A stretch of 64,000 nt of DNA from an alpha proteobacterium BAL199 (GTDB lineage Bacteria > Pseudomonadota > Alphaproteobacteria > Thalassobaculales > Thalassobaculaceae), in contig ABHC01000012.1 of assembly GCA_000171835.1 (NCBI GenBank), forward strand, positions 62,001 through 126,000. Reading direction: 5' to 3'. Shown here one piece after another: positions 5,631 to 7,164 of the stretch; position 1 is the first letter of the stretch, and each line of letters begins with the position of its first letter. Both the position numbers and the translations under genes were made by a program. Below the pieces are notes generated by a model. It searched no databases. It was not told the DNA's origin and saw only the letters and a program-made list of their open reading frames with translations.

Positions 5631-6023
5631 TCAGGCGGCCTTCTCGCGTGCCGTGGTGTAGGCCTTCGCGCAATGGGCGGTGCAGTACGGCCGACCCGGC
5701 GCAACCTGATCACCGCAGAAGCTGAAATTGTCGGTCTTCGGATCACCTGTCGGCCAGCTGCAGGTGTTGCGGTCCCACTGTTCCAGAGTCAGCGGCACGG
5801 CCCGGCGGCGCTGCACCGGCGCTTGCGGTGCCCGCGGCTTGTCCGACTTCACGATCGGCGACTGCCGCTTCGGCAGGCCCATCCGGTGAACCTTACCGAC
5901 CACCGCGTTGCGCGACACGCCGATTACGAGGCCGATCTGGGTGATCGACAGCCCCTCGCCCCAAAGCCTGGTCAGATCCGCCAGACGGTCTTCGGTCCAT
6001 ACGCTCTGCAGGTTGTCCGACAT
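5631..6023 (-). CDS. gcrA: Cell cycle regulator GcrA
   Basis: A 130-residue protein beginning MSDNLQSVWTEDR. The N-terminal helix-turn-helix carries the family signature (WGEGLSITQIG, VSRNAVVGKVHRMGLP). A basic proline-rich linker leads to the C-terminal sigma-70-binding segment with conserved Cys and Trp (TCSWPTGDP, FCGDQ, YCTAHC). GcrA is found in alphaproteobacteria, where it joins RNA polymerase holoenzyme at promoters carrying CcrM-methylated GANTC. The ATG at 6023 is preferred to one four codons upstream because it begins the conserved N-terminus. Upstream lie a DnaA box and two GANTC sites, described separately. Confidence 0.95.
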   Translation of the reverse strand: MSDNLQSVWTEDRLADLTRLWGEGLSITQIGLVIGVSRNAVVGKVHRMGLPKRQSPIVKSDKPRAPQAPVQRRRAVPLTLEQWDRNTCSWPTGDPKTDNFSFCGDQVAPGRPYCTAHCAKAYTTAREKAA

Positions 6024-6152
6024 GGTCGCCTCCATTGAACCGTTCGCGTGAGCGGCGACTCGTTGCCACCCACATCTTGTGTTCGGATGACAAGAGGCTA
6101 CGGGATATGGGTTGCGACAACAAGCAGGACCACCATATCTGGCGTAATTTTA

Positions 6153-6161
6153 TGTGGATAA
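6153..6161 (-). promoter_or_regulatory. DnaA box upstream of gcrA
   Basis: The minus strand reads TTATCCACA, an exact match to the consensus high-affinity DnaA box, in the AT-richer gap between the beta-lactamase homologue and gcrA. It is about 130 bases before the gcrA start. GANTC sequences occur at 6176-6180 and 6209-6213. In Caulobacter, DnaA is known to activate gcrA transcription directly, so position and polarity make biological sense. Binding itself is inferred. Confidence 0.6.
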
Positions 6162-6211
6162 CACAAGAAACCGCCGATTCGCTCCGATTGTCCGTCGCGG
6201 AGCAAGCCGAA

Positions 6212-7066
6212 TCAGCGGCCCAGCTCGGCAATCTGCATGGGTTCGGCAGTGATCGCAGCGACGCTTGGCGCGGGAGCACAGTTCGTTTCGTCGCCGATGC
6301 CCAGGCGGCTGAAGACGTCCAAGGTCACCTGCCTGGCTCTGGATCGGACCAATGCCGGATCGCCTTCGATAGCGGTTGCGAACAACCAAACCTCTCGCGG
6401 CATCTCGACCCACCCGACCAGCCAGCCCAGTTCGGCCTCTTCGCCGTTGTCTCGTACGGTTGGTGCCCAGCTCGACTTGGCGCGGAACACCGCATCACAG
6501 CCTACCGGCTCGCCGGGCACGATATCGCGGGCCACGGTCTGCGAACGGGCGCTCGCGGGCAGGGTGCCGAGCAGCAACCGTTCAACGAAATCCACCTGCT
6601 GAACCGGTGTCACCCGCAAGCTGTCGTTCATCAGAAAACGGGTACTGCCGCCAGCGGCCCCGGCGTTGCCATAGTTGAGACGGTGCAACCAGTCGGCCAT
6701 TCGTTCGGCCCCGATCGCCGCGGTGATCTGCTGCAGTTCGGGGCCGGACGTGATCGGGCCGGCATCGCGCATCACGCCGGTCTCAAGCGCGATCAGCAGG
6801 TGCGGCAGTTTGAAGGTCGATGCCGGCGGCAACCCTCGCTCGGCGGTGTCCAGGTCGGAAACGAAACTGCGGCGGTCGCCAAGACGGCGCAACACGATGG
6901 TGCCGCTGACCCCGGAGGTTTCGAATGCGCTGCGCCATTCAGGGATCTCGACCACATCGTCGCTGGCCCGGCCGTCGGCCCCTGCGGGCGCACCAGCCAC
7001 GATCCCTGCCAGAACGATCATGGCGGGGCCCATCCAGCGGGCGCGTTTGTGCATCGATACCGGCAT
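6212..7066 (-). CDS. Class D (OXA-type) beta-lactamase homologue with altered motifs
   Basis: A 284-residue secreted protein; the ATG at 7066 has GGAGG five bases before it. A signal peptide is visible to about residue 30 (hydrophobic MIVLAGIVAGAPAGA). The serine motif PASTFKLPHLLIALETG gives S83-x-x-K86, diagnostic of class D enzymes, and LNYGN (132-134) is the YGN motif. Two features are abnormal. The segment between ETG and the second motif is about 35 residues shorter than in OXA enzymes, with SGP where SxV is expected, and KTG is KSS (197-199). GWLVGWVEMP matches the following strand. It may be a weak or non-hydrolysing penicillin binder. The family is firm; activity is uncertain. Confidence 0.85.
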   Translation of the reverse strand: MPVSMHKRARWMGPAMIVLAGIVAGAPAGADGRASDDVVEIPEWRSAFETSGVSGTIVLRRLGDRRSFVSDLDTAERGLPPASTFKLPHLLIALETGVMRDAGPITSGPELQQITAAIGAERMADWLHRLNYGNAGAAGGSTRFLMNDSLRVTPVQQVDFVERLLLGTLPASARSQTVARDIVPGEPVGCDAVFRAKSSWAPTVRDNGEEAELGWLVGWVEMPREVWLFATAIEGDPALVRSRARQVTLDVFSRLGIGDETNCAPAPSVAAITAEPMQIAELGR

Positions 7067-7164
7067 CTCAACCTCCATCAGGTCAGCTTCCCTCGTATGG
7101 GTAACGCTGCAGACGGATTGCGGTGCCCGAACGGCGGAGTCAGGGCATTACGGCGATGCCGCCG

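Follow-up and report, generated by a model that had tools for sequence, protein, structure and literature searches.

In Caulobacter crescentus, gcrA is directly activated by DnaA (PMC3193534; PMC8203912), its promoter has GANTC sites (PMC2217572) and its transcription peaks right after initiation (PMC3193534). A survey published in 2010 detected no DnaA motif at Caulobacter gcrA and judged the DnaA-GcrA-CtrA system to lack class-wide conservation (PMC2877005). With CcrM, these proteins form the textbook bacterial cell-cycle circuit, to which a candidate NrdR site would add a dNTP-sensor input at gcrA.

The boxes bound by NrdR, the dATP/ATP-sensing repressor of RNR, have the consensus acaCwATATwTwGtgt, and nrdAB of Escherichia coli is under NrdR control. 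With dATP/ATP, NrdR forms a tetramer that represses from two boxes lying over RNR start sites and spaced by about three turns of the helix, dATP-dependent binding being its known mode (PMC9110341). The boxes that it binds are separated by spacers of 14-17 or 24-27 bp, which corresponds to 30-33 or 40-43 bp from start to start (PMC12051234). The E. coli nrdAB promoter also carries DnaA boxes (PMC8203912).

We analysed a stretch of 64,000 nucleotides (the window) from the alpha proteobacterium BAL199, and propose from comparison of sequences that its gcrA promoter is probably under dual control (we put this at about 0.78), with DnaA as the activator and dATP-loaded NrdR as the repressor. The gcrA gene (5631-6023(-)) encodes a cell-cycle sigma-70 cofactor GcrA of 130 aa, as indicated by matches to PF07750 (E=3.5e-30), to the GcrA structure in PDB (1.5e-20) and to NCBIfam sig70cofacGcrA (3.6e-25, under that model's cut-off). 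It is a single-copy gene in this genome of 6,102,701 bp. The ATG at 6023 is preceded by GGAGG, and the start of a 134-aa frame from 6035 is probably set too early. The features found upstream of this ATG are collected in Table 1.

Table 1. Predicted regulatory features upstream of gcrA in BAL199 (window positions)
Feature	Sequence	Positions	Strand	Remarks
GANTC	GAGTC on minus strand	6057-6061	(-)	CGAGTCG invariant in 10/10 relatives
NrdR-like box C	ACACAAGATGTGGGTG	6067-6082	(-)	9.8 bits; just downstream of predicted start; nrdJ counterpart GCACAAGATGTGGTTC
Putative -10 hexamer	TAGCCT	6095-6100	(-)	Inferred; GTAGCCTCTTG invariant in 10/10 relatives
NrdR-like box B	AACCCATATCCCGTAG	6098-6113	(-)	Overlaps -10; 31/32-bp phase; nrdJ counterpart CCCCCATATTCAGTAG
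Putative -35 hexamer	TTGTTG	6118-6123	(-)	From sequence; 17-bp spacer; TTG kept in 10/10 relatives
NrdR-like box A	ACGCCAGATATGGTGG	6130-6145	(-)	10.3 bits with NrdR consensus matrix; among best single boxes in 64 kb
DnaA box	TTATCCACA	6153-6161	(-)	Perfect consensus; 129 bp before gcrA
NrdR-like box 0	CGGCGGTTTCTTGTGT	6161-6176	(-)	Weak; one base in common with DnaA box; 31 bp to next box
GANTC	GAATC on minus strand	6176-6180	(-)	GANTC at same place in 10/10 relatives
GANTC		6209-6213	(-)	Overlaps stop codon of gene upstream of gcrA (6212-7078(-))

The product of the gene upstream of gcrA resembles class D beta-lactamase models with scores below the curated cut-offs, as a chromosomal relative. 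Weak second GcrA-like matches were observed in two genomes of the family, at G021:C15:15134-15499 and G027:C27:9793-10065 (36% and 31% identity), the latter with an internal stop. In two complete reduced genomes of 1.5 Mb (G025 and G026, genus g11), gcrA, the CcrM-type RAMA domain and nrdR are all missing.

The gcrA promoter contains four imperfect palindromes of 16 bp that match the NrdR consensus, starting at 6067, 6098, 6130 and 6161, that is at intervals of 31, 32 and 31 bp with NrdR-type spacers of 15, 16 and 15 bp. In other genera the boxes at gcrA include the near-perfect palindromes ACACATAATATAGTGT and ACACAATATTTAGTGG. A consensus matrix was built from the consensus letters with weights of our choosing, and its letters were then checked against the RNR promoters of the family; when it was scanned over the window, all of the three top-scoring 31/32-bp pairs in the 64 kb fell in the gcrA promoter. 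Boxes B and 0 are each weak when scored singly. Single pairs scoring like those at gcrA do occur in simulated windows (maximum 19.2), so it is the array and not any one pair that carries this test: the chain of four boxes reaches 29.0, whereas no chain of the 20 simulated windows exceeded 8.9. A pair matrix derived from the RNR promoters of the family alone gave 31.9 bits at gcrA, the next best match (17.2) lying at the same place, and with such RNR-only sites p reached its floor (0.005) for nearly all gcrA promoters of the family.

The pairs recur at gcrA across the class. With the consensus matrix, 31/32-bp pairs at p<=0.01 were detected in 27/31 loci of the family, 39/83 class loci and 55/80 named loci, counts that shared ancestry raises within families, where loci are not independent. 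Of the 51 other alphaproteobacterial families sampled, 28 have such a pair, and in 17 no pair reaches p<=0.05, even though nrdR occurs in most of these 17. When the pairs of a whole locus were ranked, the top one lay in the 230 bp upstream of gcrA at 28/31, 12/27 and 76/80 loci (2.2, 1.8 and 7.5 expected by length, respectively). When the spacing was left free (17 to 49), the best spacing peaked at 31 and 32 for the class loci and, for the named loci, at 31 and 42; no spacing peak was seen with permuted, shuffled, reversed or flanking controls. A set rich in Caulobacterales peaked at 31 and also at 42, 62 and 104 bp, and gcrA of Caulobacteraceae is preceded by four NrdR-like boxes spaced by 31, 31 and 42 bp. 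The peaks at 31/32 and 42 are thus those of the two spacer classes, 15-17 and 26 +/- 1 bp, that NrdR uses (PMC12051234).

The same boxes occur at an RNR gene of this genome, which also encodes nrdR (G000:C68:395193), as would be expected of an NrdR regulon. Its nrdJ (G000:C60) carries CCCCCATATTCAGTAG, 15 bp and GCACAAGATGTGGTTC, the layout of gcrA in nearly identical letters. A single exact pattern search, on which the genome-wide specificity of this sharing rests, found GTAG-N16-CACWANATNTNG without mismatch only at gcrA and nrdJ in each of four genomes (G000, G001, G012 and G028). At 31 bp, the nrdA promoters of Caulobacter, Brevundimonas and Asticcacaulis give 16-20 bits, with 16-19 bits for Caulobacter itself, which is comparable with the scores at gcrA. 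Paired 16-bp boxes with 15-bp spacers over the start region are also the layout of the NrdR-repressed promoters of nrdJ, nrdAB and nrdRJ. The gcrA promoter differs from these in that its phased boxes number four and not two, that a DnaA box separates box 0 from box A and that the target is a cell-cycle regulator. E. coli nrdAB likewise combines DnaA boxes with NrdR input, but there RNR itself receives both inputs, whereas here gcrA is predicted to do so.

A different regulator with a similar palindrome could control gcrA, nrdJ and a gene for a YciA-like thioesterase, which is not among the known targets of NrdR. The presence or absence of nrdR is uninformative here because nearly every genome has it (78/80 class genomes; the remaining two are split, one with a pair at gcrA and one with none), and two genomes, G114 and the incomplete G011, have a pair at gcrA though nrdR was not detected. 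The box sequence, the two spacing classes, the overlap with the start site and the sharing with RNR genes nevertheless all fit NrdR, which makes an additional factor unnecessary, and we regard one as improbable.

Control by NrdR must also be weighed against the idea that only the DnaA box matters and that the resemblance of the phased palindromes to NrdR boxes is an accident of conserved promoter geometry (-35, -10 and start). In its favour, box B coincides in part with the -10 and box C with the start region, and several genera have a comparable GTAG...CAAGATATGG arrangement at the thioesterase promoter. Boxes A and 0, however, keep the same 31-bp phase upstream of the core promoter, the spacing is selective (in the set rich in Caulobacterales, 42, 62 and 104 bp besides 31), and the window-wide matrix scan found no other promoter in the 64 kb with a comparable score. 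Plain sigma-70 geometry was rejected as the main account on the first two of these grounds, and we consider this reading unlikely. A strict scan of the gcrA upstream region for sigma-70 promoters and terminators gave no match, the -35 hexamer included.

The DnaA half of the proposed control had been put forward by a sequence-only reading of this stretch, which noted a perfect DnaA box about 130 bases before gcrA, with GANTC at 6176 and 6209, and suggested that the DnaA-GcrA-CcrM timing loop is kept in this lineage. Both the box and the two GANTC sites were confirmed at those places, and the activation of Caulobacter gcrA by DnaA on which that reading drew agrees with published work (PMC3193534). 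TTATCCACA occurs once in perfect form in the window and ten times in the genome; the chance of a perfect copy in any given 200-bp stretch is ~3e-4. Among the ten closest relatives, from four genera, GTGTTATCCACA is invariant and stands at a constant distance from the invariant GTAGCCTCTTG of the -10 region and from the invariant CGAGTCG, with drifting sequence in between. The box is therefore conserved at a fixed place, as that reading had expected of close relatives, with both the ATG and the predicted promoter on its downstream side. The conserved ...GTGT half of box 0 accounts for the GTGT that invariably precedes the DnaA box.

Beyond these relatives, a perfect DnaA box was found at five gcrA loci of the AT-rich genus g12, and in total in 15 of the 31 gcrA upstream regions of the family, against 0.03 expected; an order-level search for further gcrA loci gained nothing beyond the family. 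Perfect boxes were also present within 240 bp of gcrA (<=240 bp) in 13/83 loci from the 51 other families, where dinucleotide shuffles gave an expectation of 0.10; these 13 fall in 10 families. The named set has 9 among 80 loci (0.14 expected). DnaA boxes are thus enriched ~100-fold upstream of gcrA across Alphaproteobacteria, and the 2010 conclusion against conserved DnaA control of gcrA (PMC2877005) is revised accordingly. That the box is a chance match, as its imperfect form or absence at many gcrA promoters, those of Caulobacter relatives included, might suggest, is hardly credible and is refuted by its conservation at a fixed position in 10/10 relatives and by its class-wide enrichment. 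All 18 Caulobacteraceae examined have an invariant CTGTGGA in the slot of the DnaA box, a weaker match on the opposite strand, unlike the perfect TTATCCACA on the coding strand in BAL199; this may be the reason why matrices missed the DnaA site at Caulobacter gcrA.

Like the C. crescentus promoter, that of BAL199 has one DnaA box together with GANTC sites. GANTC is rare in the window (119 observed, 317 expected), as expected where CcrM methylates, so that three sites within 160 bp are unusual. Two of the three are conserved in 10/10 relatives and flank the promoter. A CcrM-type methylase is present (RAMA domain match at G000:C52:89743), and gcrA, methylase and promoter GANTC sites, the elements of the GcrA/CcrM epigenetic module, thus occur in one genome. 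Sequence-based evidence from the box, the GANTC sites and the methylase hence supports the suggested DnaA-gcrA link and the retention of the DnaA-GcrA-CcrM layout. The earlier picture of that layout was incomplete: it overlooked the third GANTC (GAGTC at 6057) as well as all four NrdR-like boxes, and the array is a more widespread and more novel feature than the sites first noticed.

Binding by NrdR and DnaA at this promoter, the sign of regulation and its timing are what we infer from these sites. DnaA would bind its box ~65-75 bp before the predicted start and activate gcrA as in Caulobacter, and NrdR would bind the helically phased 16-bp boxes at their 31/32-bp intervals, with B and C covering the -10 and the start region and A and 0 reaching upstream to the DnaA box. 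At high dATP, an NrdR tetramer occupying B and C would obstruct the promoter and switch gcrA off along with nrdJ; another tetramer, bound at A and 0, would lie directly against DnaA. As forks consume dATP, NrdR would leave, gcrA and nrdJ would be released together and DnaA would drive gcrA. Such dual control fits the maximum of gcrA transcription just after initiation in Caulobacter (PMC3193534).

It also fits the behaviour of Caulobacter with raised dNTPs, whose delay of initiation does not depend on CtrA and is accompanied by little change in DnaA levels (PMC12186491). That 2025 study left the mechanism open and does not mention GcrA (PMC12186491). If our reading is true, NrdR at gcrA could be how high dNTP pools delay S phase in Caulobacter, with no causal role for the levels of CtrA or DnaA. 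A Caulobacter delta-nrdR strain spreads like the high-dNTP strain (PMC12186491), which simple repression of gcrA by NrdR alone does not predict; loss of NrdR is expected also to raise dNTPs.

For the class as a whole, the recurrence of the boxes makes it reasonably likely, with somewhat less confidence than for BAL199, that gcrA is a direct, ancestral NrdR target across Alphaproteobacteria, with dATP gating gcrA together with RNR and DnaA giving the initiation signal. The boxes would suggest that many alphaproteobacteria tie the cell cycle directly to the supply of DNA precursors. We found no published report of a link between NrdR and gcrA, nor of NrdR-like boxes at gcrA of Caulobacteraceae, in a literature search at title and abstract level with partial coverage, and gcrA is not mentioned in the main text of a regulon reconstruction that includes 186 NrdR regulons.

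Two further promoter arrangements were observed. The promoter of the YciA-like acyl-CoA thioesterase gene carries a similar GTAG-N16-CAAGATATGG in several genera of the family (L181, L183, L197, L192, L193 and L188), and in genus g9 this gene lies ~10 kb from gcrA; it is a possible further member of the gcrA/nrdJ regulon. Several genera also have a second 31-bp box pair ~390-440 bp upstream of nrdJ (L150, L154, L151 and L149), which perhaps serves a divergent gene.
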